DNA of 64,000 bases from Dyella subtropica (GCF_026283965.1 NZ_JAPDPD010000015.1:62001-126000), one strand, 5' to 3'; shown: positions 7,867 to 64,000, counted from the stretch's first letter. Made by a program: numbers and translations. Notes: a model not told the origin generated them from the sequence alone.

Positions 7867-7871
7867 GTTCG

Positions 7872-13542: not shown

Positions 13543-14067
13543 TCAGCGAATGTTGTTCTCCACGTAGCGTCTTATACGCGCCACGTAGGATTGAGAGGCC
13601 CGCTCCATCATCGCCAAGTGCCGTTCGCTAACTTCGCCGACGATGCGGCCCGGAATACCCTGGACTATGGAGTTGTCGGGAATGACCTTGCCCTCGGGTA
13701 CCAGGGATTTGGCGCCAATCAGGCAGTGGCGCCCTATTTCGGCACGATTCAAAACCACGGCGCCGATGCCGATCAATGATCCGTCGCCGACCATGCATCC
13801 ATGCAGCATGGCCAGATGGCCGACGCTGACCTTGTTGCCTACGACCAGCGGAATCCCGGGATCGGTATGCAGTACGGCGTTGTCCTGGATGTTGCTTTCG
13901 CTTCCGATGGCTATGCGGTCGTTATCTCCCCGCAACACGGCGCCAAACCATACGCTGGACGCCTGGCCGATATGCACATCCCCTATGACGATGGCCGATG
14001 GAGCGATGTAACTTCCATCCCCGAGCTCAAGTTGCGAGTTTTCCAAGGAAAAATAGTAGGGGCTCAC
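13543..14067 (-). CDS. Gamma-carbonic-anhydrase-like hexapeptide-repeat protein (YrdA/PaaY type)
   Basis: 174-aa left-handed beta-helix protein with hexapeptide periodicity (IVIGDVHIGQASSVWFGAVLRGD). The residues expected for metal binding in gamma-class carbonic anhydrases are present: His in LHTDPG, then GHLAMLHGC. Length is typical for YrdA/PaaY/CaiE proteins, which are cytosolic trimers with carbonic anhydrase or possibly other hydrolytic or acyl-transfer roles. GTG start with AGGAAAG upstream. It is the last gene of the minus-strand run, 91 nt after the stand-alone condensation protein, so it is probably co-transcribed; whether it belongs to the pathway (for example CO2/bicarbonate supply for malonyl-CoA) or is a housekeeping neighbour cannot be decided. 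Confidence 0.85.
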   Translation of the reverse strand: MSPYYFSLENSQLELGDGSYIAPSAIVIGDVHIGQASSVWFGAVLRGDNDRIAIGSESNIQDNAVLHTDPGIPLVVGNKVSVGHLAMLHGCMVGDGSLIGIGAVVLNRAEIGRHCLIGAKSLVPEGKVIPDNSIVQGIPGRIVGEVSERHLAMMERASQSYVARIRRYVENNIR

Positions 14068-14158
14068 GTTGCTTTCCTATGCGGCACAGGCATTCCGCGT
14101 GCAACAACTCAATGCTCTCGCGCGCCCTGGTGGTCAGGAGGCGCCGGTTCGGACCGAC

Positions 14159-15685
14159 TTACACGCACACCTCGGAAATTCGTTGCAGCTTCGAGAGCAG
14201 CGTTTCAGCCAGCTCGATGATCGTGTCATCCCTGTGTATCTTTTCGCTGTATATCAGGGATATTTCTATGCCATCCCACGCCCTGTCGCATTCAATAAGC
14301 AACTCGTGAGAATACGGGTCATGCAGCTCCGGATCGCTATGCGACTCGACCCTGAAAATGCCGCTCTTTCTGGGCGGCATGGCGACCCCGTCTTCTTTTG
14401 CTCCACCTTTGACAAACAGCGTCGTGCGATTGTTAAGGAAGACCTGAGGCCGCGGCATCCGCTGGAAGTCGGACCTGACCTCCTGGTCCGGGTGCAGATA
14501 CCGCAGGAAGCCATAACCCAGGCCATGCTGGGTCACATCCGTAATCCGCTTGCGGAGAGCCTCGAACGATCCGGGCGACGACAGGCTATCCGGTTCCACG
14601 TCGAACCACATGGGAAATTTGAAGGTCGTCGGACCCACCACTTCCAGGAAATCGATCCCAGGAGTATGGCCGCCGCGCCCATGGTGCTCGACGTCGATGG
14701 CGACCATCGGGTGGCCTGACCAATGCGCGATCGCCGCCACGGCGGCGATAAGAAGCGAATCATTCATGAGGGATGTGTTCTTGGATGAAAGAACATCGGC
14801 CCCGACATACAAGGTAATTATTTTGGAATTGTTGGCGGTGTGCAGGCCACCCACAAAGTCAACGGGAATCCTGGGCGTCTCTGCGTTGATGAAGCCGCCC
14901 CAATAGGACAATGACCTTGCAAGAAACATCGGCCCGCTCATGTATTGATGCAGCGTTTCGGTGTAGCTCGCATAGCTGCATGCTTTCTTTATTTCGGCAT
15001 CCACCACTTGATGGCCTGACAGCCTCTTATAGACATCTACCATATCGGAGACAATGGATTCGACGCAGTAAGCGTCCACAATGTTGTGATGGAGATTTAC
15101 AACGATGACGTCTCCTGTGTTCCTGTTCTTGCAAAGGGCCACATAGATCACCGGCCCGTCGACCATGCTGAGGGTCCGCTCAACGTCCTTCTGAATATCG
15201 AGCATGCATTTTTCGGTGTTCTCGGTCGCGTCAGACAGGACTATTTTCGGCTCGCCTGGAGCGCTCAGTATTCTCAGCGCCCATTCCCCGTCCTGCTTCC
15301 GGTACAGCCGCTGCCGGAACGTGTCGTAGCGGCTCATGGTCAAATGAACCGCTTCTCTTACCAAATCAAAATCGGCGTCTCCACCGATGTGCGCGTGGCG
15401 AGTCACCGACCACCTGTGCTCGACAGGATCGAAGGTCTCCAGGTACCAGCCATGCCATGGCGTCAGCGGCAGTTCGCCGGCGTCGCGATCGTCCGATGAC
15501 CATCGCTCCACCTGGGCCAGACCTCTTTCGATAAGGCCGATCAGGTCTTGCTTGTGGCGCTTCACCTCTTCGAGCAGGGCGTCGGTGAAAGCTCCCGCCG
15601 GGGCTCTATAGCCAAGAGCGCCATTCTTGACGAAGAGCTCAATCTGCTTGTACTCCAGCGCGAGCAGCAAATCTGAAAGATGCAT
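14159..15685 (-). CDS. Stand-alone NRPS condensation domain with N-terminal TubC docking domain
   Basis: 508 aa. Residues about 1-58 have the beta-alpha-beta pattern of a TubC-type docking domain (MHLSDLLLALEYKQIELFVKNG..., then a basic helix), like the NRPS N-terminus encoded upstream. From about residue 73 a condensation fold begins (LPLTPWHGWYLE). The catalytic motif is HHNIVDA, with His199, His200 and Asp204 (Gly of HHxxxDG replaced by Ala). There is no A, PCP or TE domain. Since the NRPS lacks a thioesterase and ends in an acidic tail suited to a TubC domain, this protein probably acts on the last PCP, joining the chain to a soluble amine or alcohol (as VibH-type free C domains do) or to a late-acting carrier. 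ATG with AGAAGAAGGG upstream; 55 nt after the oxygenase gene. Confidence 0.88.
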   Translation of the reverse strand: MHLSDLLLALEYKQIELFVKNGALGYRAPAGAFTDALLEEVKRHKQDLIGLIERGLAQVERWSSDDRDAGELPLTPWHGWYLETFDPVEHRWSVTRHAHIGGDADFDLVREAVHLTMSRYDTFRQRLYRKQDGEWALRILSAPGEPKIVLSDATENTEKCMLDIQKDVERTLSMVDGPVIYVALCKNRNTGDVIVVNLHHNIVDAYCVESIVSDMVDVYKRLSGHQVVDAEIKKACSYASYTETLHQYMSGPMFLARSLSYWGGFINAETPRIPVDFVGGLHTANNSKIITLYVGADVLSSKNTSLMNDSLLIAAVAAIAHWSGHPMVAIDVEHHGRGGHTPGIDFLEVVGPTTFKFPMWFDVEPDSLSSPGSFEALRKRITDVTQHGLGYGFLRYLHPDQEVRSDFQRMPRPQVFLNNRTTLFVKGGAKEDGVAMPPRKSGIFRVESHSDPELHDPYSHELLIECDRAWDGIEISLIYSEKIHRDDTIIELAETLLSKLQRISEVCV

Positions 15686-15740: not shown

Positions 15741-16715
15741 TCAGGCAAAGGCCGCCGCCACCCGCCTGACTCCCGTTCCCGGGGTCCATCCGCACGCCGA
15801 ATGAGCCCAGGTCATGTTGTTCATGACGACAAGTTCCCCCGCGCGAAGCTTCCTCACAATCGCCCGATTGAATATGGACGGCAGCCGGATGCCGGAAGAC
15901 CAGACCTTTCGATGAAGGCTGCAGTCCAGGACGCTGCCGTCCTCGATGTCATGCGGAGCCTTGAAAAGGCCCACGCGCCGGAGCGCCTTGATGAACTCCT
16001 TCGCGATGTCCCGATCCACATTGCCGATGGTGTCCCAGCAGACAAAGCGATCGACGCCCAGGATCCTGGAGTGGTTCTTCTTGGCTGGCTGCAGAACGCC
16101 GTACCGGGAGACATCAGCCACGGGCGTATCCATCAGATGCACCAGATCATCGCCCTCCTTGACCCTATCCCTGGGCCATTCGACCTCGCACGTCATCTTC
16201 AGTGTCGCAATTTCCATCTTTGTCAATTCGGTGCGATCAGTTTTTACCTTGTATTTGAATTCCTTCATGTCACTCCAGACATCCTCGTCATCGGAAGACC
16301 CCCAGAGGATGGTCTCCCCGCCGTCCGTGGTGTTTTCATAGCAGTAGAAAGAGGATATCTGCATGTTCATGCCGCTATTCCCTTCCGAATGCGGCGGTAT
16401 GAAGTGGTAGTCTCCGCGCTCGTTGACCGTCATGAAATACTTCCCCACGTTCTTTCTATGACCGTGGATGGCCGCGAATCCAGCCTGAATCTCAAGCTCC
16501 TCGCTCAAGCCAAATTCCGCCGCTATGCCGGAGATCAATCTATCCGCATCCGCCGGCGAAGCGCCCTGGATCAGTACGACCTTATCCTTCGACAGGATCT
16601 CGGCAATCCTTCCGAATCTGGCCTGGGCGGCATCGAGCGCGACCATGTGTTCCGAGCCGGCTTGTGCATCCAGGCCCGACAGATCAAATATGGATTCGTC
16701 AGATACGGTGGCCAT
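15741..16715 (-). CDS. TauD/TfdA-type Fe(II)/2-oxoglutarate-dependent oxygenase
   Basis: 324-aa cytosolic enzyme. The metal triad is visible as His109-x-Glu111 (PPHSEGNSG) and the distal His305 (TWAHSACGW); Arg317/Arg318 shortly after is placed to bind 2-oxoglutarate. The carboxylate ligand is Glu, as in clavaminate synthase and AsnO-type beta-hydroxylases, and not Ala or Gly as in SyrB2-type halogenases, so hydroxylation (or desaturation) is expected. It lies 47 nt after the NRPS stop and 55 nt before the stand-alone C domain, so it is part of the operon. A likely role is beta-hydroxylation of a PCP-bound or free amino acid, perhaps that of NRPS module 1, but the substrate is not shown by the sequence. 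Confidence 0.88.
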   Translation of the reverse strand: MATVSDESIFDLSGLDAQAGSEHMVALDAAQARFGRIAEILSKDKVVLIQGASPADADRLISGIAAEFGLSEELEIQAGFAAIHGHRKNVGKYFMTVNERGDYHFIPPHSEGNSGMNMQISSFYCYENTTDGGETILWGSSDDEDVWSDMKEFKYKVKTDRTELTKMEIATLKMTCEVEWPRDRVKEGDDLVHLMDTPVADVSRYGVLQPAKKNHSRILGVDRFVCWDTIGNVDRDIAKEFIKALRRVGLFKAPHDIEDGSVLDCSLHRKVWSSGIRLPSIFNRAIVRKLRAGELVVMNNMTWAHSACGWTPGTGVRRVAAAFA

Positions 16716-16762: not shown

Positions 16763-19700
16763 TCAGATGAAGCCCTCCTCGTACACCGGCTGCTTCGGAG
16801 CGGCCGGGTTCAAACGGGGCACCATGGATACCCGTTCAGCGAATTGCTCCAGCACCGCTGCCGCGAATAGCGCCTGCACGCTGGCATGCAGATCCACCTG
16901 CCGCATCCGCGCCAGCAGGCGCACAGCCAGCAGGGAATGGCCGCCCAGCTCGAAGAAGTTGTCGTGTCGGCCTACGCGCTCGACACCGAGCAGTTCCTGC
17001 CAGATCTCGGCGATCGCCGTTTCGACCCGGCCGATCGGCGCTTCATAAGCTTGCGTTGCATACGCGTCCACCTCCGGCGCCGGCAGTGCCTTGCGATCCA
17101 GCTTGCCGTTGACCGTCAGAGGAAAATCCTCCAGCGTCACGAAGGCGTTCGGCACCATATAGTCGGGAAGCTGCTTCGAAAGCTCCGCACGCAGATCCGC
17201 CACGGCAAGCACGCTGCCCGCTTCGGCGCGGAGGTAGGCCACCAGTCGCTTGTCCCCGGGCTGGTCTTCCCGCGCGATCACCACGCTGGCGGCCACACCT
17301 GCACACGCGGCGAGCTTCGCCTCGATTTCGCCAAGCTCGATGCGGAACCCGCGGATCTTCACCTGGAAATCGTTGCGGCCCAGATACTCGATCTCGCCGG
17401 CCGCGTTATAACGACCCAGGTCGCCCGTCCGGTATAACCGACTTCCCGGCGACCCGAAGGGATCGTCGACGAAGCGTTCGGCCGTCAACGTCGGACGGTT
17501 CAAATACCCTCGCGCGACGCCCACGCCACCGATATGGATTTCCCCCGCCACACCGACAGGAACCGGCCGGCGCCGCTCATCCAGGATGTAGATCTGCGTG
17601 TTGGCGATCGGACGTCCGATCGGTATCGCCAAGCCGACGTCCTGCGTACGGCAGGCATGGAAGGTGACATCGACGGACGCCTCCGTCGGCCCATACAGGT
17701 TATGCAGATGCGCCGTCGACGACGCCAGGAAATCGCGCGCGACATCCGCGGGCAAGGCTTCACCGCTACAGAAGACGTGTCTGAGACTGGTGCACGCCGC
17801 CAGGTCCTCGACACTCAGGAACTGCCTGAGCATGGACGGCACGAAGTGCGTCACCGTCACCGCTTCGCCCACGATCAGGTCGCGCAGATCCGCTGGATCC
17901 TTGTGCCCGCCCGGCTCCGCCAGCACGATTCGCGCGCCATACGACAACGGCCAGAAGAATTCCCACACTGACACGTCGAAGCTAAACGGTGTCTTTTGCA
18001 GAACACGATCCATGCCGTCGAGCCGATAGGCATCCTGCATCCACTGCAGGCGATTCACGATGGCGCCGTGCTCAACCATCACACCCTTCGGGTTGCCGGT
18101 GGAGCCCGACGTATAGATGACATAGGCCAGCTGCGTGCTTGAGAGCTCGTCCACCACAGGATCATGTCGGGGTTGCAGCGCCAGGCTTTCGGCGTCATCC
18201 AGCAGCACCACCGGCGGCGCGATGTCCTGCAACCGGCGACGCCATGCCTCCTGCGTCAGCACAAGTTTCGGGGCACTGTCCGCCAGCATGTAGCCGATCC
18301 GATCGACCGGATAATCCGGATCCAGCGGCACATAACTTGCGCCCGCCTTCAGCACACCCAGCAAGCCGACCACCATCTCGGCGCTGCGCTCGGCATACAG
18401 CGCCACCCGATCGTCGGGCTTGATCCCCTGGCCCAGCAGATGATGGGCGAGCTGGTTGGCGCGGGCGTTCAACTCCGCATAGGTCAACTGGCGTTCCTTG
18501 AACACCAGGGCGATCGCGTCCGGCGTGCGCCCCACTTGCGCTTCAAACAGCTGATGCAGGCAGCGGATCTTTGGATAGTCCACGGTCGTGTCATTGAACG
18601 TCTCCACCACTTGCTGCCGCTCCGCCGCGTCCAGCACGTCCAATTGGCACACGGGGGTGGATGGCGCGTATTCCAATGCGTCGACCAATTGCTCCATGGC
18701 CCGATGCAGCATCGCGCACACTCGCGCCGGACCGATCGACTCCTGCACCTGCACCAGCAATTCAAATCCTTCGCCGAAATCGTCGATTGCCAAGGTCAAC
18801 GGATAATTGGTGCGCTCCTCCGAACGCAGATGGCCCGCCTCCTCCTGCGCACCTGACGGCTTCGACTCCTCGCTGGCCGCGGTATGACGGTAATTCAGCA
18901 GCGCACTGAACAGCGGCGCGGGTGCCCGAACACCACTGCAGTTCTGCGCCAGCACCAGCGAGGCGTGCTCGTGGTGCAGCAGCTGGCTGATCAGGCCGTG
19001 CACGGCGCGCACGCTGGCATCGACGCTGCTTTCGTCGATGCGGATCCGTACCGGCAGCGTATTGATCCCCAGGCCCAAGGCGTTCTCGCCCTGCATGCCA
19101 CCGAACAGGACGGTGCCGAACACCACGTCGTTCTGGCCTGACGCCCGCGCGAACACCAGGGCGGTAGCCAGGTGGCAGAGACTTGCCGCGCTCACGCCCA
19201 GCGCCCGCGCCCGGGACCGCAGCCGCCGCGCCAGCCCTGCGTCGACCTCGCGCCGAAAATCGACGATGTTGCTGCCGTCGCCATGCACATTGGCAAGGCC
19301 GAACGGGATCGTCGGCTCGTCGACGTCGCCGAGCATTTGGCGGAAGAACGCCTCGTGTTCCGACGCGCTCACGCCCAGCCGCGCCTGCGCCACGAAGTTG
19401 CGGAAGGGCAGCGCGGGCGGAAGCTCGGCCTGGCGTCCTTGCAGGTAGGCCGCAACCTCCGCCTGCAGGTGCTCCTGCGCCATGTGATCCATGCACAACT
19501 GATGCAGCAGTTGCAGGACCACCCATCGGTCGTTGCGCTCGTCATACGCCGCAAACAGCTTGAACAGCGGGGCCTGGCGCAGATCCAGCCGGCATCGCCG
19601 CGGATCGAAGCGCGTCCACAGCTGCTCCGCGATATCACCGTCGCTGGCCGACAAGACAGGCTCCTCCACCACCAGCTCGGCCTTTCGCCACACCACCTGG

Positions 19701-58300: not shown

Positions 58301-59268
58301 GTCCGGCATTTTCCATCGGAGGACAGCAAGCCCGCCTGCGAAAACACAATGGTGAATTCCGGCGTCAGCATCAGATTGACCGCGCCGGCCAGCGCCGTGC
58401 GCGACTCGCCGCTGCGCAGGCTCTGGCAGGCCATGTGAATGGCGGTCAAGGACGACGAACACGCCGTATCGATCGACAGGCTCGGGCCGCGCAGGTCGAA
58501 GAAATAGGAAATCCGGTTCGCCGTGATACTGGCCGAATTACCGGTTCCGGCCAGTGCGTCGATCGAACAGCGGTCGCTGAATTGCCGCTCCCGGTATTCC
58601 TGGTTCGACAGGCCGACGAAAACGCCGATCCGATCGCCGCGCACGGCATCGCGGTTGAGGCCCGCGTCTTCGAAAGCCTCCCAGGCGACCTCCAGCATCG
58701 CCCTTTGCTGGGGATCCATGCGCTCCGCTTCGCGCGGGGCGATCCCGAAAGCGTCGGCATCGAATTCCTCGATGTCGGGAATGAAACCGCCATGGCGCGT
58801 ATTCATCTTGCCCGGCGTGCCGATGACCGGATCGTAGACGGCATCCACATCCCAGCGGGTCGGCGGCACTTCGGAAATCGCATCCTTGCCGGAAGCGAGC
58901 AGTTCCCAGAACTCCGAGAGATTCTGCGCCCCCGGAAAACGGCAGGACATGCCGACGATGGCGATCGCCTCCTGCGACGGCAGCGGCCTGGCTGCGGGTG
59001 ACGGCGCGCGCGGAGACGATGTTCCCGTGGCGGCTAGAACGTATTCCATAACCTTCGATATGGAATCGCAATCGTAGAACAGGGTGACCGGCAGTTCGGT
59101 TTCCAGCCAGCGCTCGAAATCGCCGGCCAGCGTCGCAGCTTCGCTGGAGGAAAGGCCAAGGTCCGAAAAAGAATCGTCCCAGGCAATCTCCGATGTCGAG
59201 ATGGCGCAAATCTCCGCCAGGCGCTCGACGAGCCACTGACCCATTACGTCCTTATCTGTAGTACGCAT
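26692..59268 (-). CDS. Giant cis-AT type I PKS: loading ACP plus seven KS-AT-KR-ACP modules
   Basis: One uninterrupted 10,858-aa frame. Order: ACP(0), then seven modules of KS-AT-KR-ACP with phosphopantetheine serines in GGNSL (module ACPs) or GLSSSE (loading ACP). KS cysteines are at residues 270, 1774, 3325, 4887, 6414, 7965 and 9476; each KS also has HGTAT and the K-x-N-(I/L/V)-GH motif. All seven AT domains have HAFHSPM, the malonyl signature. All KRs have the NADPH motif GGLGxxG and the YxAAN active site. No DH, ER or MT domain was found, so each extension should stop at a beta-hydroxyl. Two KR classes occur in the order a-b-b-a-b-a-b. The C-terminus (DFIEEVV) is an acidic tail matching the TubC domain of the NRPS. 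Starts 80 nt after the ABC gene. Confidence 0.97.
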   Translation of the reverse strand: MRTTDKDVMGQWLVERLAEICAISTSEIAWDDSFSDLGLSSSEAATLAGDFERWLETELPVTLFYDCDSISKVMEYVLAATGTSSPRAPSPAARPLPSQEAIAIVGMSCRFPGAQNLSEFWELLASGKDAISEVPPTRWDVDAVYDPVIGTPGKMNTRHGGFIPDIEEFDADAFGIAPREAERMDPQQRAMLEVAWEAFEDAGLNRDAVRGDRIGVFVGLSNQEYRERQFSDRCSIDALAGTGNSASITANRISYFFDLRGPSLSIDTACSSSLTAIHMACQSLRSGESRTALAGAVNLMLTPEFTIVFSQAGLLSSDGKCRTFDADANGYVRSEGAAAIVLKTYAQAQADGDRIYGLIRGSAINQDGRTLALTTPNRAAQEAMLEAAYEAAAIAPADVDYVEAHGTATPIGDVIEVAALSAVLEQGRPAGRKCLIGSVKTNLGHLEAAAGMAGMIKTVLAMQHRQIPASLHFERPNPRIGFEKTAIEVVTALTPWPATSRPPLAGVSAFGFGGTNVHVVLEAAPLAPEPDDATTFRAFPVSARTVSGLERARRVLDQSLQNGDVPFRRNLAYTLTKREPYPNRAVVIADANHGASPLLAKAERLLSPGAQPAFVFAGVGDHYLGMGQGLYQAEPVFRHWVDYCCGWLKAELGLDLLDVFQARPSREANAGDAFRRMVAGARDLGILAQTELAQPAVFVLEYALARLLEAWGIEPGACVGYSLGEYTAATLAGVFSLEDGLRIVATRARLIGELPAGGMLAVPLAAEALGDYLDVDKQLAIGIVNGPRLSVVSGPLAAVEQVKERLQADGVVSRLLGTAHAFHSPMMQPVAKALADLIGGMPLSAPRIPVLSNVTGDWLREDEATSPAYWGRHLCETVQFADCLQKLFDRESGALIEIGPGQSLNSLARLHPGFNQRSHLVVSTCRGAFDPQEDQAVFLKSLGEFWCAGGSVNWGTPFEGAPGSHVSLPSWLFDRQRYWLDARQQAVTAAQGAGGKVADIGKWFYAETWSESPAPQADADAGAANWLVLCADSPAGEAVGGGLHGRSKRLVSTEVASDPERLRQAIGQMRSEGFVPSRIVHLGGLTAEDGEETLQARGYLSLLALMKALGEGRSTATVQLDIVSNGLYLARARDVLSAAKATLIGAIRTIPQEYQNVTLRSIDMDGVDAASASRLLAELLSPANDVAVAWRGDTRLVQGYESRPLDEVTAERDMLREGGVYVITGGLGNVGLTIAGMLAQRYQAKIALLSRRAFPEREQWERWLSENGNEDPVSAQIAKLLDMEAAGGEVVVLAADVADEARMEEVFASIEQRHGQVHGVFHAAGLVTPASNNIIAELTAEQIETHFSAKVRGTQVLGRVLDTRQADFCLVFSSISVVLGGLALSAYVAANAYEDGFVLSRRDAVGTRWVTVNWDTWARDRGEQDTKGTTLEAFLMWPEEGAEAVRRVLGSNASARLIGSTADLWTRLNQWVYRKTTAPAAGTTERKLSYYARPAVSTAFVAASSKIEKRVARVFQDVLGIEAIGLEDNFFELGGNSLVSLQILAEVQREFDTQLSPILIFEAPSISAVSRRMASLIGGEDQPAISGASARRRRQARRGSGSSDIAIIGMASRSSGAPDIGTLWDNALNGVESLVRFSDDELRAAGVDPALVHNPAYVKVRGVVSGIDLFDAGVFGISPREAELMDPQHRLMLETAWETLEHAGYDSHRYEGSIAVFAGTTPSEYQAGLFLDRALWEGLNEFDTYLANTQDSLATRVSYKLNLRGPSLSVGTYCSTSGVAIHLACQSLRAGESDMALAGGISLRVPSAIGYLYEPGNQASPDGLTRTFDARAQGTVFSDGIGLVLLKPLEDALEDGDTIHAVIKGSAVNNDGSLKAGFTAPSVEQQSEVISMALDHAGLSAGDIHYVEAHGTATELGDPIEVAALTKAYRESTDKVGYCALGSIKPNIGHTDRAAGVIGVIKATHVLKTGVVPPTLHFERPNPKIDLANSPFVVSNQRQELPASASPWRAGVTTLGVGGTNVHFILEQAPEVEPSGPSRAAQLLLLSAKTQASLDGASARLSAHLQEHPEQDLADVAYTLQTGRKRLEYRKAVVCNERGEAIAALSEGGDQGHLSSNGTPSVVFMFPGVGDHYSDMAADLYRTEATFRELVDHCCAVLEPVIGLDLREVLFTPGGLSGEPRASMDLKALLKRGEQRPEGRLQETWLAQPAVFVIEYSLAQLLMSWGIQPQAMIGYSVGEFVAAAVAGSLELEDALRLVALRAKLIEALPGGAMLAVPLAEADVAALLPEGVSVAICNGPKTTVVSGAEDAIASFEAILAAKSIVSRRLQTTHAFHSPMLEGAAEGLRELLSNVTFAAPAIPYISNLTGTWIDAQEAASADYWVSHMCGTVRFADGIGALLSEDKGRVLVELGAGQSLGSFVKQHPAYERGMAVIPTLRAPFQEQRDDAYLLSAVGRLWLAGIEADWTSFYREERRLKVPLPTYAFDRQRYWIDAELPALSLARSLLTQAEKSALADSFYAPSWKTSGSVDGALNAPAAGTCWLIFADADGIGDALAAAVKPLGIETVLVRRGENFTVAEDGSCLLRPSVAADYVSVLKELKHRRLAPSRIVHLWAAEHWHEDMSSHLQEQMEAGFYSLFHLAQAIGEQLADTPTELCIVASDLEPVLGTETIHPAKATLRGPCKVIRQEYATVACRSIDLFSPSEEAWDAERLGMRLAAEILSGGEDQFSAFRDGQRWVPFVAPVQIEAPHDEVPRLKEGGVYFVTGGLGGIGFAFADYVYRTRNAKLVLVGRSGLPPREAWAGILAAGKEDQVTERVRKIGGLIEAGAEVLIITADVADPAQMDDAVRQALARFGTINGVFHAAGLPGQGLTQLKTAQAAAAVMAPKIQGTLALDHAFSGVDLDFMVLVSSIAAIVGGGPGQIDYCAANAFMDAFAQRHHAKHGMTVAINFGEWQWDAWSDGLKGYQPEMQEALKQHRRQFGISFEEGMEGIRRILAIDAPQMILLPEDAVAMIEGSNSCSVTTISSAVQQTRGRRPTAYPRPALSSQFVAASNELERKIAAIWQRALGIDEIGTKDNFFDLGGNSLVGLQVVAELRKELDVELRQVVLFEAPTIDALVRYLSPTAEEPASQHAGRLLAERRERIRGGSASRDIALVGMSGRFPGARSPQELWENVSAGVESVTFYSEAELREAGVGASKLRDPNYVRAGYDVADFDLFDARLFGYSPREAELIDPQHRQFLECAWEALEDAACDPDSHPGLIGIFAGAAGSAYGRHVFAHPELLTSGMAVLQANIGNNNDALATRVAYKLNLRGPAMSVQTFCSTSGTAMHAACKSLQYGECDIALAGGVNIAISGKAGYLYEQGGIDSPDGHTRTFDADAKGSVIGDGVAVVVFKRLEDALADGDHIYAVVKGSALNNDGSLKVGYTAPSIEGQAAVVAEALAVAGVAADSISFIETHGTATELGDPIEVAALTKAYRQSTDKVGFCALGSVKTNIGHLDRAAGVAGMIKAVLSLQHERITPVLHFKAPNPSIDFASSPFFVAAEAKSWPRGSAPRRAGVNVLGVGGTNVHFILEEAPEIEPSGPSRAAQLLLLSAKTQASLDGAAARLGAHLQEHPDQSLADVAYTLQVGRKRLEYRKAVVCNERGEAIANLEQGGDQGHLSSNGTPSVVFMFPGVGDHYPDMAADLYRTEIVFRELVDRCCEVLEPVIGLDLREVLFTPGGLSGEPRASMDLKALLKRGEQRPEGRLQETWLAQPAVFVIEYSLAQLLMSWGIQPQAMIGYSIGEFVAAAVAGSVELEDALRLVALRAKLIEALAGGAMLAVPLSEIDASTLLPEGVSIAICNGPKTTVVSGAEDAIASFEAILAAKSIVSRRLQTTHAFHSPMLAGAAEGLRALLSNVTFAAPAIPYISNLTGTWIGAQEAASADYWVSHMCGTVRFADGIGALLSEDKGRVLVELGAGQSLGSFVKQHPAYERGMAVIPTLRAPFQEQRDDAYLLSAVGRLWLAGIEADWTSFYREERRLKVSLPTYAFEKQRYWIEPAIDANAEIDTGEVSLITRLMEHAEKLPLEDSFYVPSWKIAGTVDGALKAPAPATGTCWLIFADADGIGDALAAAMKPLGIETVLARRGENFSVAQDGSISLRAAAEADYASLLKELKRRGVVPSRIVHLWAAEAWDADLSGHLAEHMDAGFYSLFHLAKAIGERLADTPIELCIVASDLEPVLGTESLHLTKATLRGPCKIIRQEFATIACRSIDLFSSDEETLAADRLALRLAAELLSGQDQFTAFREGQRWIPVAEPVHIEAPVSDDMPRLKEGGVYFITGGLGGIGLAFADYLYRMRSARLVLVGRTGLPPREEWDALLAAGQDDRVTERVRKIHDLIQAGAEVLIITADVADQAQMDDAVRQALERFGTINGVFHGAGLPGQGLTQLKTVQAVAQVMAPKIQGTLALDRAFSGVDLDFMILVSSVAAIVGGGPGQIDYCAANAFMDAFAQRHHARHGVTVAINFGEWQWDAWSDGLKGYQPEMQEALRSHRRQFGITFEEGMEAIRRILAIDVPQIILFPEDAAAVIASSNACVISNISSAVQQTRGRRPTAYPRPELSSQFVAASNELERKIAAIWQRALGIDQIGTKDNFFDLGGNSLVGLQVVADLRKELDIEVRQVVLYEAPTIDALVRYLSPAAEEPVGQDAGQLLAERRERARAGGAASRDIALVGMAGRFPGAMTPRQLWKNINEGAEAVTFYTDAELLAAGVAPATFANPNYVKAGCDIPDFDLFDARLFGYAPREAEFIDPQHRQFLECAWEALENAACDPASYRGLIGVFGGSTNSAYTENLLSRPDVVDTGVDMLQVIIGNNNDALATRVAYKLNLRGPAMSVQTFCSTSGVAMHFACKSLLLGESDIALAGGVNIAISGKAGYMYTEGGITPPDGHTRTFDVDAKGSVLGDGVAVVVFKRLEDALADGDHIYAVVKGSAINNDGSFKVGYTAPSVEGQAAVVAEALAVAGVSAESIGFIETHGTATELGDPIEVAALTKAYRQSTDKVGYCALGSIKPNVGHLDRAAGATGMIKAALSLQHERITPVLHFKAPNPNIDFASSPFFVADRDLAWPRGAEPRRAGVNVLGLGGTNVHFILEEAPEIEPSGPSRAAQLLLLSAKTQASLDGAAARLGAHLQEHPDQSLADVAYTLQVGRKRLEYRKAVVCNERGEAIATLEQGGDQGHLSPNAKPSVVFMFPGVGDHYPDMAADLYRTEATFSELVDHCCAVLEPVIGLDLREVLFTPGALSGESRASMDLKALLKRGEQRPEGRLQETWLAQPAVFVIEYSLAQLLMSWGIQPQAMIGYSIGEFVAAAVAGSVELEEALRLVALRAKLIEQLPGGAMLAVPMAEADVAALLPEGVSIAICNGPKTTVVSGAEEAIASFEAILAAKSIASRRLQTTHAFHSPMLAGAAEGLRELLSEVTFAAPAIPYISNMTGTWIGEQEAASADYWVSHMCGTVRFADGIGVLLSEDKGRVLVELGAGQSLGSFVKQHPAYERGMAVIPTLRAPFQEQRDDAYLLSAVGRLWLAGIEADWTSFYRKERRLKVPLPTYAFDRQRYWIESGKQNPAVENASGGRITDIGQWFYAETWSEAAPGPAKASADATWLVLFDDHPAGQALTAKLRATAKRVVTIAGSPDGVFALERPDHYRIDPADPAQLKRVIREMQQAGIVPNHIVHLGNLTDERDFDALQAKGYLSLLSLMQALGESRVLAPVQLDVVSNGLYAARPDDKVSAAKGTLIGAIRTIPQEYQNVTVRSIDIDAAGAGVAKRLLAEIASAATDVAVAYRGDTRLVQGYESRPLGEVAVDSDVLRQGGVYVITGGLGNVGLTIAGMLAQHYQAKIALLSRRAFPEREQWESWLSEHGSEDPVSGQIAKLLDMEAAGGEVVVLAANIADEARMEEVFASIEQRHGQVHGVFHAAGLITSESHSIIATASKSQIDGQYAPKVHGTSVLARLLDKRQADFCLLFSSLSAVLGGLTLSAYAAANAFEDNVALSRHDAGGTRWVAVNWDTWARAEGVQDHKGTTLEAFLMWPDEGAEAVRRVLGSTQASRLINSTADLRTRLDQWVYRKASPLAGAKVERKLSYYARPAVSAAYVAASNEIEKRVARVFQDVLGIEQVGLEDNFFELGGNSLISLQIIAALQHEFGVQLSPILMFEAPSVSTVSKHMLAIGGPQAAAAVQVAPKRKPRTRREAMYADIAIIGMAARGPGASNFAALWENALNGVESMTQFSDDELYASGIDPALVRNPNYVKARGIVADIDLFDPGIFGISPREAELMDPQHRLMLETAWQTLEHAGYDSFRYDGQIGIFAGARPSDYQMILHSDRELWSELEPSDTHLANTQDSLATRISYKLHLKGPSLSVGTYCSTSGVAIHLACQSLRTGESDMALAGAVSFFVPGRRGYLYEPGDQASPDGHTRTFDARAQGTVFSDGVGMVLLKPLEAALEDGDTIHAVIKGSAVNNDGSLKAGYTAPSVEQQSEVVSMALDNAGLSAGDIHYVEAHGTATELGDPIEVAALTKAYRESTDKVGYCALGSIKPNIGHTDRAAGVIGVIKATHVLKTGVVPPTLHFERPNPKIDLANSPFVVSNQCQQLPASVSPWRAGVTVLGVGGTNAHIILEQSPAPAPSTDGKAWNFLTLSAKTTGSLETMRENLADALNADAGIHIADAAFTLHHGRREFGERLAVVGRDREELIRALRDQPSDRCFRSVGTAGKRPVAFLFPGAGEQYVGMAAGLYETEAVFRQEMDTCFELLETELGLDLRPVLFAEGAKTPEKAKQFLRGEAPQDEASLRLNQTQYAQPCMFVVEYCLARLLMSWGIVPEALLGYSVGEFAAAAIAGIVSLPDALRLVAGRARIIADLPGGAMLAVPLPEAELKPLLPAELAIGIGNGPKLTVVSGPEAAIASFEAVLASREVVSRRLQTTHAFHSPMMEGAADALRQLLSTVELHAPRMRCLSNVTGGWLTEADATDREYWVRHMCRTARFADCLDSLVAKGDWAMVEVGPGQSLTSLVKQHSLGRAAPTIVSTMRMAYLSEQDQAVLTAALAKLWIAGVAPDWDAYHAGERRRRIPLPSYAFDRQRYWMDADIPDVSLASRLMTQAEKSPLADSFYLPSWKIAGTVDGALKAPAAGACWLIFADADGIGDALAAAVKPLGIETVLVRRGEDFAVAQDGSVALRAARKEDYVAVLKELKRRGLTPSRIVHLWAAEHWHEDMSSHLHEQMETGFYSLFHLAQAIGERLSDTPVELCIVASDLEPVLGTETIHPAKATLRGPCKVIRQEFATVACRSIDLFSSSEEALGAAKLGTRLAAEILSGGEDQFSAFRDGQRWVPFVAPMRIEAPQEEVPRLREGGVYFVTGGLGGIGFAFAEHVYRTRNAKLVLVGRTGLPPREEWAGILAAGQDDRVTERVRKIHGLIEAGAQVLIITADVADPAQMDDAVREALARFGTINGVFHAAGLPGQGLTQLKTAQAVAEVIAPKIQGTLALDRALSGVDLDFMVLVSTIASITGGGPGQIDYCAANAFMDAFAQRHHARHGVTVAINFGEWQWDAWSDGLKGYQPEMQEALKQHRRQFGISFEEGMEGIRRILALDVPQMILLPEDAVAMIGGSNSCSVTNISNALKQTRGRRQTAYPRPALSSQFVAASNELERKVAAIWQRALGIDEIGTKDNFFDLGGNSLVGLQVVAELRKELDVELTQVVLYEAPTIDALVRLLSPAQEAGAAQEGESRLLAERRGKVRLGRSSNDIALIGMSGRFPGARTPQQLWKNLSAGVESVTFYTEAELREAGVSPAKLRHPNYVRAGYDVEGFDLFDGPLFGYAPREAELIDPQHRQFLECAWEALEDAACDPERYAGMIGIFAGSNNSAYIHNLLSRPDLMESPVAGLQIGVGNSNDALATRVAYKLNLRGPAMSVQTFCSTSGVAMHTACRSLLHGECDIAMAGGVNIAISGKVGYMFEEGSIDSPDGHTRTFDIHSKGAVIGDGVGVVVFKRLEDALADSDHIYAVVKGSAINNDGSFKVGYTAPSVEGQSIAIAEALAVAGVDAGSIGFVETHGTATELGDPIEVAALTRAYRGSTDRVGYCALSSIKPNIGHLDRASGVTGLIKAALSLQHELITQVLHFTAPNPNIDFADSPFFVADQKLAWPRGAEPRRAGVNVLGLGGTNVHFILEEAPDIEPSGPSRAARLLLLSAKTQASLDGAAARLSAHLQEHPEQDLADVAYTLQAGRKRLEYRKAVVCNERGEAVAALEQGGDQGHLSPNAKPSVVFMFQGVGDHYPDMAVDLYRTEATFRDLVDHCCAVLEPVIGLDLREVLFTPGGLSGEPRAAMDLKALLKRGEQRPEGRLQETWLAQPAVFVIEYSLAQLLMSWGIQPQAMIGYSIGEFVAAAVAGSIELEDALRLVALRAKLIEAQPGGAMLAVPLSETDTSALLPEGVSIAICNGPKTTVVSGAEAAIASFETALAAKSIVSRRLQTTHAFHSPMLAGAAEGLRELLSEVTFAAPTIPYISNLTGTWIGEQEAASADYWVSHMCGTVRFADGIGELLLEDKGRVLLELGAGQSLGSFVKQHPAYGRGTPVIATLRASFQEQRDDAYLLSAVGRLWLAGIEPDWALFYRDERRLKVSLPTYVFEQQRYWVEPGKQSPAAEDASVGKIADIGRWFYTETWNEAARGADEADAQASWLVLSHDNEVSRALLTGLRARGQQVVTAEAGAGVSHLKQVIGEMRQAGKTPTRILHLGGLTDEQDFEALQAGGYLSLLSLMQALGENRVTTPLRLDIVSNGLYAARPDDVVSAAKATLIGAIRTIPQEYQNVSVRSIDIDAVGAGAAERLLAEIASSATNVAVACRGDTRLVQGYAASPLDEVAADRDALRQGGVYVITGGLGNVGLTLAGMLTRRYAAKVALLSRRAFPERGQWEQWRAEHGDDDPVSRQIAGLLDMEAAGGEVVVLTADVADEARMTELFAWLDERYGQVHGVFHAAGLITGESHSIIATASKPQVDRQYAPKVSGTLVLSRLLASRNADFCLLFSSVSAVLGGLTLSPYAAANAFEDNFALSRRDAGGTRWVSVNWDTWARAEGVQDHKGTTLEAFLMWPDEGAEAVRRVLGSTQASRLINSTADLHARLDQWVYRKAAPASARSERKLSYYARPAISTAYVAASNKIEKRVARVFQDVLGIEQVGLEDNFFELGGNSLISLQILAELQREFELQLSPILIFEAPSVSTISKHLLTVCGVEGLVAAEPPVPLKRARRSKRGVLHSDIAIIGMAARGPGASDVATLWDNALNGVESMARFSDDELFASGVDPALIRNPDYVKARGIVTDIDQFDPGVFGISPREAEVMDPQHRLMLEIAWQTLEHAGYDSHRYEGAIGVFAGTAPSEYQYGLYLDRALWAEIDSFDTHLANTPDSLATRISYKLDLNGPSLSVGTYCSTSGVAIHLACQSLRTGESDMALAGGISLRTPNRRGYLFVQGDQGSPDGHTRTFDAKAQGTVFSDGAGMVLLKRLDDALADGDTIHAVIKGSAVNNDGSLKAGYTAPSVERQSEVVAMAIDDAGLSAADIHYVEAHGTATELGDPIEFAALTRAFRETTDARQFCALGSIKTNIGHTDRAAGVIGVIKATHVLKTGVVPATLHFERPNPKIDLDNSPFVVSNQRQALPVSTSPWRAGVTSLGVGGTNVHLILEQGPAPAPSTDGKAWNFLTLSAKTAGSLEAMRENLADTLDTDDGISIDDAAFTLHYGRREFGERLAVVGRDREDLIRALRDQPSDRCFRSVGGAGKRPVAFLFPGAGEQYVGMAAGLYETEAVFRQEMDTCFELLETELGLDLRPVLFAEGAKTPEKAKQFLRGEAPQDEASQRLSQTQYAQPCMFVVEYCLARLLMSWGIVPEALLGYSVGEFAAAAIAGVMSLPDALRLVAGRARIIADLPGGAMLAVPLPADKLEPMLGADLAVGISNGPNLTIVSGPDASVAALETALAAKDVVSRRLQTSHAFHSPMMEGAADALRQLLSTVELHAPQRPCLSNVTGEWITKADATDREYWIRHMCRTARFAECLDTLWARGDWAMVEVGPGQSLTSLVKQQALGREHGQAPAAITTIRTTYVQDDDRAVLTAALAKLWVAGVAPDWDAYHAGEQRRRIPLPSYAFDRQRYWIDADMPEVPLASRLLTQAEKSPLADSFYLPSWKIAGTVDGALKAPTPAAGTCWLIFADADGIGDALAAAVKPLGIETVLAWRGRSFAVAQDGSISLRATVKEDYVAVLKELKRRSLVPSRIVHLWAAEAWDADLSGHLAEQMEAGFYSLFHLAQAIGERLADTPIELCIVASDLEPVLGTETIHPAKATLRGPCKVIRQEFATVACRSIDLFSSDEEALGEDRLGARLAAEILSGGDDQFSAFRDGQRWIPFVAPVQVDAPFEEVPRLKEEGVYFVTGGLGGIGFAFAEHMYRTKRAKLVLVGRSGLPPREEWDAILAAGHDDRVTERVRKVSSLIEAGAEVLMITADVADPAQMEDAVRQALARFGAINGVFHAAGLPGQGLTQLKTAQAVAEVMAPKIQGTLALDRAFSGVELDFMVLVSSIAAITGGGPGQIDYCAANAFLDAFAQRHHARHGATVAISFGEWQWDAWSEGLKGFQPEMQEAMRSHRRQFGISFEEGMEGVRRILALDVPQMILLPEDAVAMIGGSNTCSVTNISNAVKQTRGRRTSAYPRPALATAFVAAESDMELQIATVWQEVLGIEQVGVDDNFFDLGGNSLVGLQLIGRINRDLDMSIPLSCIYESSTVRKQAEMTEEILMIQAVGLEQEQVDASLSGDFIEEVV
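31361..35897 (-). other. PKS module 6: KS-AT-KR(class a)-ACP
   Basis: KS6 active site VQTFCSTSG (Cys7965), following a class-b KR. AT6 belongs to the AT2/3/4 group but has FQGVGDHY. KR class a with DIGRWFYTETW and SPYAAANAFED. ACP motif ELGGNSL. Confidence 0.9.
35898..40544 (-). other. PKS module 5: KS-AT-KR(class b)-ACP
   Basis: KS5 active site VGTYCSTSG (Cys6414), following a class-a KR. AT5 belongs with AT7 to a second group (PGAGEQYVGM, GYSVGEFAAAAIAG, HAFHSPMM). KR class b with LVSTIASITGGG and QIDYCAANAF. ACP motif DLGGNSL. Confidence 0.9.
40545..45129 (-). other. PKS module 4: KS-AT-KR(class a)-ACP
   Basis: KS4 active site VQTFCSTSG (Cys4887), following a class-b KR. AT4 belongs to the AT2/3/6 group. 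KR class a with DIGQWFYAETW and SAYAAANAFED. ACP motif ELGGNSL. Confidence 0.9.
45130..49814 (-). other. PKS module 3: KS-AT-KR(class b)-ACP
   Basis: KS3 active site VQTFCSTSG (Cys3325), following a class-b KR. AT3 is nearly identical to AT2, AT4 and AT6 (GYSIGEF, HAFHSPML). KR class b with QIDYCAANAFMDAF; DLGGNSL in the ACP. Confidence 0.9.
49815..54464 (-). other. PKS module 2: KS-AT-KR(class b)-ACP
   Basis: KS2 active site VGTYCSTSG (Cys1774), following a class-a KR. AT2 is of the GVGDHY/GYSVGEF type. KR class b is marked by FYAPSWKTSG in its N-terminal half and QIDYCAANAFMDAF at the active site. ACP motif DLGGNSL. Confidence 0.9.
54465..58972 (-). other. PKS module 1: KS-AT-KR(class a)-ACP
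   Basis: KS1 has the classic DTACSSS active site (Cys270), unlike all other KS domains here, and takes the starter from the loading ACP. AT1 is the most divergent of the seven (GYSLGEY, GVGDHY, HAFHSPMM). KR class a is marked by DIGKWFYAETW at its N-terminal half and SAYVAANAYED at the active site. ACP motif ELGGNSL. Confidence 0.9.
59010..59268 (-). other. PKS loading ACP (residues about 1-86)
   Basis: The protein begins directly with a carrier domain (DSFSDLGLSSSEAATLA) with no AT, KSQ or adenylation domain before it. It must therefore be charged in trans. With an FkbH-type protein in the same operon, a glyceryl group is the most likely starter. Confidence 0.85.
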
Positions 59269-61126: not shown

Positions 61127-62236
61127 CTACGCGAATGCTTCCTGGCGGCAGCCCATGCCGTTCACGATGTGGACCGACGCGTACGCGGGGTAATCCGAGA
61201 CCACGCTGCATTCGTTCTCCAGGAGGCTGACGCCGTCGAACTCGCCCAGGTCCTGGAAATGGCTGAAGCGGTAGGTGATGTACATCATGCGGTTGCGGTC
61301 GGTGCGGATGAATTCAGCGCGCAAACGAACGCCGGCCTTGTTGGCCTCTGTCACCAGGTAATTGATGATGATCGTTCCCACGCCACGCGACATGACGCGG
61401 CAGGACATCAGCAGCAGCTTTACTGTCCAGTACTTGGGCGCCCGTTCGAGCAGGCACAGGCCGATCTTTCCGTAGGTCCCGAACCTGTCTTCCAGGCCGG
61501 CGATAAGCAGCTCGTGATCCGGCGACTCCATGATGGCCTTGAGCTCATCGTAGCTATAGGTCCGCCCCGTGGTATTCAGCTGATGGGTGCGTTTGGTGAG
61601 CTCTTCCGCCCGCTGCAAGTCGTTTTCAGTCGCCTTGCCCAGCGTCAGCTGGAGGCCAAGGGTCGCAAGGAAGTCTTCCTTGGGCCCCTCGAACTTCTCT
61701 TCCACCTCGTTGCGCTGGATGTCGCTGAGATACATAAGGCGACGGCTTTTGGACTCGTCCGTGACGAATCGCGGAATGAATTCATTCCGCTCCAGGATGG
61801 CGTCGAATTCCGTCGCGTCGACGCACAGCACGTCCGGATGCGAATAAGCCACTTCCTCGCGCTCGAAGGACTGATCGTCGATAAAGGCGATACTGTCGAT
61901 GCCGACATTGATCGCGGTCGCAATCGCCTTGACGGAGGCGGCCTTCGATCCCCAGTTGATCTGGGGATAGAGGAAGTATTCGGCGATCCCGAAGGCGGCC
62001 AGCTTGGCCATGGCCGTGGCGTGATCGTTCTTGCTCGAGATCGACTGAAGAATGCCGCGGCGATCGAGCTCCTGGATCACGTCCACGACGCCGGGGATCA
62101 AGGCAACGGCCTCGTCTTCGAGAAGGACGCCGTCCCAGATCGTATGGTCGAGATCCCAGACGACGACCTTGACCGACCTGGCTCGCCGCTCTTCCCTGTC
62201 TTTCTCCAGCTCTGCCAACAACGCGTTGCTAGACAT
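61127..62236 (-). CDS. fkbH: FkbH-like HAD-superfamily glyceryl transferase/phosphatase
   Basis: 369 aa. The HAD motif is VVVWDLDHTIWDG (Asp28, Asp30), followed by SISSKNDHATAMAKLAAFG, YFLYPQINWGSKAASVKAIA and FIDDQSFEREEV, the full FkbH signature; the C-terminal third carries a GNAT-like part with DRFGTYGKIGLCLLE. FkbH proteins take D-1,3-bisphosphoglycerate, remove the phosphate and place the glyceryl group on an ACP. The glyceryl-ACP is either used as a starter (bryostatin-type loading) or oxidised to hydroxy- or methoxymalonyl-ACP. Here the PKS begins with a bare ACP, which is the natural acceptor. The start is chosen at the ATG at 62236, six nucleotides after GGAGGA; the frame itself opens further upstream at 62299. 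Confidence 0.93.
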   Translation of the reverse strand: MSSNALLAELEKDREERRARSVKVVVWDLDHTIWDGVLLEDEAVALIPGVVDVIQELDRRGILQSISSKNDHATAMAKLAAFGIAEYFLYPQINWGSKAASVKAIATAINVGIDSIAFIDDQSFEREEVAYSHPDVLCVDATEFDAILERNEFIPRFVTDESKSRRLMYLSDIQRNEVEEKFEGPKEDFLATLGLQLTLGKATENDLQRAEELTKRTHQLNTTGRTYSYDELKAIMESPDHELLIAGLEDRFGTYGKIGLCLLERAPKYWTVKLLLMSCRVMSRGVGTIIINYLVTEANKAGVRLRAEFIRTDRNRMMYITYRFSHFQDLGEFDGVSLLENECSVVSDYPAYASVHIVNGMGCRQEAFA

Positions 62237-62317
62237 CTTCATTCCTCCGATTGAAAGGACAGCAACAGCTCGCAACAACGCACCCCGCTCACCTCGCAAC
62301 CCGTACGCACCCGTCGC

Positions 62318-63010
62318 TCAAGAGCGAGGCAGCGTTACGCCGGTGTAGATCCGCTCGCCATCGGCCATCCAGCGCCCGATGAAATCGGCGGCATGGCGCG
62401 GCATGGGCTTCACCTTGTTTTCCAGAACGATCGAGAAGCCCCCCTCCCTGGCCCCTCCCGCCTTGACGGAAAAGAACACGGAAACCTCCCGAAACCCGAG
62501 AAAAGAGCGCGTGCCCGGGTAATAGCACTTGTAAAAAGATTCTTTGGCGCTGAAAGCGAGCTTTGGCCAATCCACGCCATCGATGTGCGGCAAGGCACGG
62601 AAATGCACGAGGTCATTCGGCCTGCAAACCAAATGGTATAGATCGCCCCCGAGGGGCTTGGCTTCTTCAGCGTCGAATCCCACGCCGGATGCGTCGTCCG
62701 ATCGTGCGACGACGGCGGAACAGAACCCTTCGCAATGCGTGATGCTGCCGCAGAAACTCGCCGGCCAGCGAGGGCTGCGATCGGGGTCGGCAATAATCGG
62801 CCCGATCGCCCCGCCGGCCTTCGCCAGCGCCTTGCGGGCAGCGGCACGACCTGCGGAATATTCACGGCGCCGCGCCGGCACCGCCTTGCGAATGTATGCC
62901 TCTTCCTCGACGAAAAGAGGCGCGCTGAACATATCCGAGTCCGCGATGCATGCGGCGACGGGGGTCACAAAAAGGTCCGCCATCGCGCGCTCATCCGCGG
63001 CGAGGCTCAT
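62318..63010 (-). CDS. Sfp/EntD-type 4'-phosphopantetheinyl transferase
   Basis: 230 aa. It has the EntD-like SITHCEG motif, the magnesium-binding GVGFDAEE and the FSAKESFYKCYYP motif, in the right order and spacing. It transfers phosphopantetheine from CoA to the serines of the eight PKS ACPs and three NRPS PCPs. The ATG overlaps the dehydrogenase stop by four nucleotides (ATGA), so the two are translationally coupled. 81 nt separate it from the FkbH gene. Its presence in the operon suggests the pathway carries its own activating enzyme. Confidence 0.93.
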   Translation of the reverse strand: MSLAADERAMADLFVTPVAACIADSDMFSAPLFVEEEAYIRKAVPARRREYSAGRAAARKALAKAGGAIGPIIADPDRSPRWPASFCGSITHCEGFCSAVVARSDDASGVGFDAEEAKPLGGDLYHLVCRPNDLVHFRALPHIDGVDWPKLAFSAKESFYKCYYPGTRSFLGFREVSVFFSVKAGGAREGGFSIVLENKVKPMPRHAADFIGRWMADGERIYTGVTLPRS

Positions 63011-64000
63011 TCCGACACCGTATCGAGTGCGAGCTGATGCTTCGGCCTGCCGCCACTCGGCTGCCCGAAGGAATCACCTCCCGCCAACAGCCTCTGCCGG
63101 TCGAATTCCTGGAACCCCAGGCTGGCAATGGTGATCTGCTGGATCTGCGTGCTGCCCTCGATCACCTCCATGATCTTGGCGTCGCGCATCAACCGCTCGA
63201 CCGGATAGGAGGGACTGCACCCGTTCGCGCCATGGATCTGGACAGCACGATCCGCCGCCCGCATCGCCGCGGTCGACGCGTGGTACTTCGCGATGAAGGT
63301 ATGCATGATGTCCTGGAAATCCCCGGACTCACGCAGCGCTCCCGCGTGGCGGCACAGCAGCCGCGCCGCGACGGTATCCGTAATGGTGTCGCTGATCATC
63401 TGCTGGATCAGCTGATGATCTTTCAGCAGAGCACCGAATCGCGTGACGCCACTGGCGTATGCGTAGCAGGCATCCAGGGACGCCTGCGCGATCCCCACGG
63501 CACCGCAAGCCACCGAATAACGCCCGAGTCCAAGCGCAGTCTGGGCCACGGTGGCGCCGAATCCCGGCCGGCCGATCATGTTGTCTTTCGGCACGCGGCA
63601 CTGCTTGAACGTCACGAGCCCCAGCATCGATCCGCGGGTCCCGAACATGCCTTCGATCGGCTCGACGGACAGCCCTGCCCTGTCGCGCTCCACCAGAAAC
63701 GTCACCGGCAGGCCGCTGTATGTGCACAGGACCAGGTACAGATCGGCAAGCTGACCAAAGCTGATCCATTTCTTCTGGCCGTCGAGTACGAACGCATCGC
63801 CATCGGCAACGGCCGTCATTTCAACGGCGGTGATGTCGCTGCCGACATTGGGTTCGCTGACACCGAGCGCACCAAGGACTTCACCCCTGGCCAGCAAAGG
63901 CAGCCAGCGCTCCTTGAGGCCGGAGCTGCCCCATCGAAGAATCGTGTGGGCGACCATGTCATGCACGGTCAACAGGGTGCGCACCGACGAGCAGGCCCTG
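63007..64000 (-). CDS. FkbI-like acyl-CoA/acyl-ACP dehydrogenase (5' end off window)
   Basis: At least 330 codons, open to the right edge. The visible N-terminal part reads RACSSVRTLLTVHDMVAHTILRWG, typical of the FkbI-type dehydrogenases of hydroxy- and methoxymalonyl-ACP pathways. It continues with the flavin-binding GALGVSEPNVGSD, WISFGQLAD, and the C-terminal YPVERLMRDAKIMEVIEGSTQIQ with the catalytic Glu position. In the classic pathway it oxidises a glyceryl-derived ACP thioester after an FkbK-type step. An internal GTG at 63984 exists but lies inside the fold, so the true start is outside. Its neighbours FkbJ (ACP) and FkbK, if present, would be beyond the window. Coupled to the PPTase by ATGA. 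Confidence 0.88.
   Translation of the reverse strand, partial: RACSSVRTLLTVHDMVAHTILRWGSSGLKERWLPLLARGEVLGALGVSEPNVGSDITAVEMTAVADGDAFVLDGQKKWISFGQLADLYLVLCTYSGLPVTFLVERDRAGLSVEPIEGMFGTRGSMLGLVTFKQCRVPKDNMIGRPGFGATVAQTALGLGRYSVACGAVGIAQASLDACYAYASGVTRFGALLKDHQLIQQMISDTITDTVAARLLCRHAGALRESGDFQDIMHTFIAKYHASTAAMRAADRAVQIHGANGCSPSYPVERLMRDAKIMEVIEGSTQIQQITIASLGFQEFDRQRLLAGGDSFGQPSGGRPKHQLALDTVSE

Follow-up and report, generated by a model that had tools for sequence, protein, structure and literature searches.

A Dyella subtropica locus that probably encodes a FAAL-primed PKS–NRPS building a contiguous polyol from hydroxymalonyl-ACP

Introduction

Hydroxymalonyl is a rare extender unit of polyketide synthases (PKSs), and butyrolactol, with four, is the best known case in which several are used. 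In characterised FkbH systems the glyceryl unit is drawn from glycolysis as 1,3-bisphosphoglycerate. A gene set of the FkbHIJK type makes hydroxymalonyl-ACP in both zwittermicin and butyrolactol biosynthesis (PMC5355916). The butyrolactol A PKS of Streptomyces is accompanied by such a cassette without an O-methyltransferase, and consecutive hydroxymalonyl extensions give it contiguous hydroxylated carbons; labelling of butyrolactol indicated that C1–C8 derive from hydroxymalonyl-ACP (PMC5355916). These four units follow malonyl and methylmalonyl units and a tert-butyl starter, and the cluster as listed contains neither a non-ribosomal peptide synthetase (NRPS) nor a fatty acyl-AMP ligase (FAAL). 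Zwittermicin A, an aminopolyol of Bacillus cereus, is the product of a PKS–NRPS hybrid in which ZmaN, ZmaD, ZmaG and ZmaE correspond to FkbH, FkbJ, FkbK and FkbI. The acyltransferase (AT) of ZmaA, which uses hydroxymalonyl-ACP, carries the motif GYSFG, and that of ZmaF, which uses aminomalonyl-ACP, GYSLG, whereas the CoA-using ATs in the same table carry GHSxG (PMC4207774).

Siderophore-type clusters of Gloeocapsopsis dulcis and Chroococcidiopsis (L017 and L018) likewise place an FkbK-ACP-FkbI-FkbH cassette beside a PKS with a GYS-type AT, but this is a single GYS among GHS ATs, in a siderophore-like context and with no seven-module PKS. FAAL-primed PKS–NRPS lipopeptide pathways share with the locus described here a FAAL, a dedicated loading ACP, an exporter and an NRPS; to our knowledge, they mostly use malonyl-CoA and few PKS modules. 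From its gene content, domain order, cassette completeness, AT class and FAAL co-conservation, we consider that the Dyella subtropica locus probably encodes a FAAL-primed modular PKS–NRPS that builds a contiguous polyol from hydroxymalonyl-ACP.

Results

Extent of the cluster and its ortholog

The window, by which we mean the whole stretch of 64,000 nucleotides that was analysed, corresponds to C6:62001-126000, part of a contig in a draft genome of 4.95 Mb. The contig extends to 145,311, and the sequence to the right of the window (L002) is numbered here in continuation as 64001-83311. The genes of the cluster are all encoded on the minus strand (Table 1). A preliminary description had set the operon at 13543-64000; the anatomy it gave (giant PKS, three-module NRPS, oxygenase, lone condensation (C) domain, exporter, FkbH and FkbI-like protein) is present as open reading frames and by Pfam and TIGR families, but the right end at 64000 does not stand, as FkbI, FkbJ, FkbK, a type II thioesterase and the FAAL extend past the edge. 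Because the window edge cuts the operon, the chemistry first read from it was mostly wrong. Although the genome is a draft, the count of seven PKS modules is probably right, since the longest exact repeat across PKS and NRPS measures 200 bp and the sequence is free of Ns. To the left of the cluster lies a two-component pair, a sensor with regulator propeller and Y_Y_Y domain and a LuxR-type response regulator, which is a possible regulator.

Table 1. Features of the D. subtropica locus, in window numbering (positions above 64000 lie beyond the window)
Feature	Position	Strand	Remarks
Two-component pair	7228-10868		Left of cluster
Gamma-carbonic-anhydrase-like protein	13543-14067		Considered as a cluster member and left out; no counterpart seen in O. 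citrea cluster
Stand-alone TubC_N docking + condensation domain	14159..15685	-	HHNIVDA; PF00668, PF18563; 58% to O. citrea ortholog
TauD-like Fe/2-oxoglutarate oxygenase	15741..16715	-	HSE...H; weak PF02668
NRPS, TubC_N-(C-A-T)x3	16763..26692	-	Pfam; without TE
PKS, loading ACP + seven KS-AT-KR-ACP modules	26692..59268	-	10,858 aa, no internal stop
AT7	28906..29778	-	GYSVGE
AT6	33439..34311	-	GYSIGE
AT5	38092..38964	-	GYSVGE; AT7 84% identical to AT5
AT4	42673..43545	-	GYSIGE
AT3	47359..48231	-	GYSIGE
AT2	52012..52884	-	GYSVGE; AT3, AT4, AT6 91-95% identical to AT2
AT1	56554..57426	-	GYSLGE; groups with cassette-adjacent GYS AT
Loading ACP	59029..59241	-	LGLSSSEA; best NCBIfam match Pks13 N-terminal ACP, E 2.4e-8
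Cyclic-peptide-export-type ABC transporter	59349..~61046	-	TIGR01194 above cutoff; 75% to O. citrea ortholog, from alignment to which the start (~61046) is placed
FkbH (glyceryl transferase/phosphatase)	61127..62299	-	TIGR01686, 277 bits vs cutoff 147; 81% to O. citrea ortholog
Sfp-type phosphopantetheinyl transferase (PPTase)	62318..63010	-	PF17837/PF01648
FkbI acyl-ACP dehydrogenase	63007..64227	-	Pfam acyl-CoA dehydrogenase; cut by window edge at 64000
FkbJ, stand-alone 82-aa ACP	64258-64506	-	Beyond window
FkbK (3-hydroxyacyl dehydrogenase)	64533-65387	-	Beyond window
Type II thioesterase (TE)	65463-66299	-	Beyond window
Alpha-amylase-like + glycogen-synthase-like protein	66650-69841	+	1063 aa; L002:2650-5841
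Two MacB/FtsX-type permease subunits	69864-72498	-	L002:5864-8498
FAAL	72464-74308	-	Best PDB matches are FAALs

Only one of 147 relatives besides the source has an ortholog of the oxygenase, Oleiagrimonas citrea MEBiC09124, of the same family, and this was also the sole match in an oxygenase-based scan of genome contigs. Its cluster is split across two contigs. One (C13) carries, in order, PKS module 1 and the start of module 2 (78%), exporter, FkbH, FAAL, PPTase, FkbI, FkbJ, FkbK, TE and the glycogen-synthase-like gene; the other (C7) carries the PKS end (75-76%), NRPS, oxygenase and lone C domain. The Fkb cassette genes keep the same order at 80-87%. Of 398 genomes belonging to the order, 3 have an FkbH of this type; in one of them (G134) an FkbH/I/J/K cassette (L089:4596-7881) had no other cluster genes within the 20 kb examined. 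Directly after the O. citrea cluster stand Wadjet-type defence genes (JetA, JetD and an SMC-like ATPase; L007:17541-19085, L008:3141-4340). The 1063-aa glycogen-synthase-like protein, which may be a tailoring glycosyltransferase, adjoins the cluster in D. subtropica and O. citrea alike (72% identity) and was found in none of ten relatives that lack the cluster. The permease pair, which lies between the gene for this protein and the FAAL here, was not found near the O. citrea cluster.

Domains of the PKS

In each of modules 1-6, Pfam finds a ketoacyl synthase (KS), an AT, a ketoreductase (KR) and a PP-binding domain, and no DH, ER or MT family; the domains of module 7 were assigned by motif and by identity to the other modules. 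The earlier prediction of a polyhydroxylated acyl chain is supported. Active-site residues are present in all ACPs and KSs, and the KR active sites are intact as first described except in KR5, where Ser is replaced by Thr at the catalytic position (STIAS). The KRs are of two types, in the module order 1-2-2-1-2-1-2, and at all six junctions the clade of the downstream KS fits the type of the upstream KR, as expected of a working ordered line; this pairing suggests a defined stereochemical pattern. Since the stereochemistry motifs LDD and W are absent from both KR types, we predict no configuration. KS1, which is preceded by the bare ACP, is unlike the other KSs (DTACSSS as against xTxCSTS; 39-43% identity).

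Starter unit

The N-terminal ACP of Pks13 is loaded by FadD32, a FAAL. At this locus a FAAL rather than a CoA ligase is encoded with the PKS, and the N-terminal ACP is of the FAAL-loaded type. In D. subtropica the FAAL is set apart from the operon by the glycogen-synthase-like gene and the two permeases, and the same genes could be read as a line whose loading ACP is primed by glyceryl-ACP or some other product of FkbH and whose ATs draw on hydroxymalonyl-ACP, while the nearby FAAL serves something else. This is improbable, as the O. citrea FAAL, a reciprocal best match, lies within the operon. With that FAAL in the operon and a Pks13-like loading ACP, a fatty acid is the most likely starter, not the glyceryl unit proposed at first.

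Hydroxymalonyl-ACP cassette

FkbH, FkbI, FkbJ and FkbK form a complete four-gene set on one strand, and no FkbG-type O-methyltransferase, the maker of methoxymalonyl, is among the genes scanned between 13543 and 74308. To judge by its genes, the cassette is a complete pathway to hydroxymalonyl-ACP, not to methoxymalonyl. An arrangement with FkbH alone, as for a glyceryl starter, was not found, both oxidising enzymes (FkbI and FkbK) being present; FkbH, to which the preliminary description gave the loading of a glyceryl starter, sits in a set that would oxidise glyceryl-ACP on to hydroxymalonyl-ACP.

Acyltransferase class and extender units

The active site of all seven ATs reads GYSxGE, not GHSxGE, and all have an HAFH lid; of the malonyl-type motifs reported before, the lid is thus confirmed and the active site is not. 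Both ATs recovered from O. citrea carry GYSxGE as well. The seven fall into three classes (AT1, AT2/3/4/6 and AT5/7) that are only 44-54% alike, so that some of them could take malonyl. Against solved structures, ZmaA-AT (4qbu) is the best match of AT2 (323 vs 252 bits) and narrowly leads for AT5 (288 vs 280 bits), but is not nearest for AT1 (206 vs 243 bits). The carrier-recognition (RXR) position is V-S-R in the window ATs, with the HAFH lid, as against a hydrophobic MCM with the lid GAAH in ZmaA; the ZmaA-type combination of hydrophobic RXR motif and non-malonyl lid was not found in the window ATs. Cassette-adjacent GYS ATs of cyanobacteria and Streptomyces likewise carry HAFH. We therefore rejected HAFH as proof of malonyl specificity and regard the lid motif as not decisive for the GYS class.

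The GYS motif itself goes with the cassette. In plasmid PKS loci, every GYS AT lies no more than about 14 kb from an FkbHIJK cassette and the remaining ATs are GHS; among 378 genomes sampled evenly across the phylum, every AT that was read was GHS except in one genome (G202), where a GYS AT lies about 3 kb from the cassette. Overall, a GYS AT occurs in 8 of 10 loci with a cassette and in none of about 30 without (Fisher p = 6e-7, a guide only, the sampled loci being partly related by descent). The only exceptions seen are G190 and G218 (L080-L083), which have FkbH/I/J/K cassettes without a nearby GYS AT; the AT closest to them reads GHSLGE and has an unusual lid, IPYH. When scored in pairs at the loci with both kinds (8/8), each window AT class scores higher against the cassette-associated GYS AT than against any GHS AT, in 24 of 24 comparisons, although the margin of AT5 shrinks to 3-4 bits in two cyanobacterial loci.

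A locus of Streptantibioticus cattleyicolor is called butyrolactol-type here because its proteins are listed as homologs, 71-78% identical, of those encoded in the butyrolactol cluster (PMC5355916). Against its GYS ATs the three window AT classes score 237-273 bits, and against its GHS ATs 129-190 bits. Three GHSVGE ATs and one GHSQGE AT, the latter of the methylmalonyl type, precede two GYS ATs beside the cassette. This is the order expected from labelled butyrolactol, with hydroxymalonyl units last, though only two GYS ATs were found in the locus and butyrolactol needs four such units. In a tree of 78 AT sequences, the window ATs, the S. cattleyicolor GYS ATs and the GYS AT of G202 form one clade (support 0.99) that contains no GHS AT, within which AT1 joins a cassette-adjacent GYS AT (support 0.95). 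Hydroxymalonyl is thereby well supported as the predicted substrate of AT2, AT3, AT4 and AT6, and likely, but less sure, as that of AT1, AT5 and AT7.

Two other assignments of extender units were weighed. The first keeps FAAL priming and hydroxymalonyl-ACP for AT2, 3, 4 and 6 but gives malonyl-CoA to AT1, AT5 and AT7, for up to 11 hydroxyls, seven of them contiguous. Most modular PKSs do mix extender units, and of the three AT classes the AT2 type is by far the most ZmaA-like, the AT5 type marginally so and AT1 not; yet all three are GYS and fall in a single clade together with cassette-adjacent GYS ATs, those of the butyrolactol type among them; both the position of AT1 and the paired comparisons favour the GYS class. 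We regard mixed extension as rather unlikely, though deserving attention. The second is the original model, in which a glyceryl starter loaded by FkbH onto the bare ACP is followed by seven malonyl-CoA extensions to give a C17 1,3-polyol acyl-X-Ser-Ser. The bare loading ACP and FkbH are indeed there, and HAFH is the usual malonyl motif. FkbI, FkbJ and FkbK, however, are there as well, and the making of a glyceryl starter would give them nothing to do; the FAAL is co-conserved, the loading ACP is Pks13-like, and each of the seven ATs is of the GYS class that goes with FkbHIJK cassettes. The complete cassette, the FAAL and the class of the ATs led us to reject this model as scarcely credible, and with it the C17 1,3-polyol is unlikely.

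NRPS and tailoring genes

As first reported, the adenylation domains give the series unknown-Ser-Ser: read from the A4-A5 motifs, the A1 code DAEMVGTIA allows no substrate to be assigned, and A2 and A3 share DVWHFSLVD, which we take to be the serine code of EntF, so that both presumably select Ser. Modules 2 and 3 are 86% identical. As the O. citrea NRPS has two modules only, module 3 looks like a recent duplication. The C3 active site, HQxxxDH, is missing the second His that C2 retains (HHxxxDH), and C3 may be inactive. The TauD-like oxygenase, with H109, E111 and H305 conserved and 64% identity to its O. citrea ortholog, is a probable hydroxylase; its sequence had no match in the PDB, and an AlphaFold model from two sequences (pLDDT 35) was set aside. 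The lone C domain, with HHxxxDA and a docking domain, is a candidate for the enzyme of chain release or of the last condensation.

Discussion

The pathway that we favour, FAAL-primed and fed by hydroxymalonyl-ACP, would run as follows. The FAAL would adenylate a fatty acid and transfer it to the N-terminal ACP of the PKS, from which the divergent KS1 would accept the fatty acyl starter. FkbH would put a glyceryl unit on FkbJ, FkbK and FkbI would oxidise it to hydroxymalonyl-ACP, and the seven GYS-type ATs would draw hydroxymalonyl from FkbJ. Each module would then add a two-carbon unit with an alpha-hydroxyl, its KR reducing the previous keto group, so that the PKS would deliver R-(CHOH)n-CO-. 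Here n could reach 14, the starter carbonyl giving one CHOH, the alpha-hydroxyls seven and the other reduced carbonyls six. The NRPS would append X-Ser, perhaps followed by a second Ser, the TauD-like enzyme may hydroxylate a residue, the lone C domain may finish or release the chain, and the ABC exporter would secrete the product. Substrates, number of hydroxyls, mode of release and function of the product are all predictions here. The full form, with hydroxymalonyl-ACP taken by every one of the seven modules and with every KR active, would give R-(CHOH)14-CO-X-Ser(-Ser), a lipid-tailed, carbohydrate-like chain, and we put it forward tentatively, at close to even chances. The weakest points of the model are the margins of AT5 and AT7, the Ser-to-Thr change in KR5 and the possibly dead C3 of the NRPS. 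For such a product, lipo-polyol-peptide is a better description than the water-soluble polyol-peptide envisaged before.

The module order and gene content of the butyrolactol and zwittermicin clusters are not matched, as starter, NRPS and module count differ. With butyrolactol, the cluster shares a clade of GYS ATs, represented on that side by the homologous locus of S. cattleyicolor, and a thioesterase gene beside FkbH; it departs from it in having seven GYS-class ATs in one polypeptide, FAAL priming and an NRPS end, and from the S. cattleyicolor locus, where GHS ATs come first, in that its ATs are all GYS. With zwittermicin, it shares the hybrid PKS–NRPS character, the cassette and, in ZmaA-AT, the nearest solved relative of AT2; unlike it, the cluster has no recognised aminomalonyl genes or ZmaF-like trans-AT, and combines a FAAL starter with seven consecutive modules. 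In the searches made, we saw no FAAL-primed pathway with a seven-module PKS of the hydroxymalonyl type.

FAAL priming, hydroxymalonyl cassettes and PKS–NRPS hybrids are each already known singly; their combination, with seven consecutive GYS ATs in one polypeptide, had no counterpart among described systems in the searches made. No matching product was found in the papers searched (MIBiG was outside this search), and one ortholog was found among the genomes searched, which agrees with the earlier judgement that the operon is apparently undescribed. There is a good case that the product belongs to a new class. As a rule, GYS versus GHS offers a simple, testable predictor of hydroxymalonyl use, where a reading of the HAFH motif only would miss such ATs. 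If the full form of the product is true, its 14 contiguous CHOH groups would be nearly twice as many as the eight hydroxylated carbons that stand in a row in butyrolactol, and engineering could draw on the synthase for ACP-dependent ATs and dihydroxy-tolerant KS domains. The locus would then represent a polyketide route to a long, sugar-like polyol bearing both lipid and peptide, an amphiphile that would be a new type of product.
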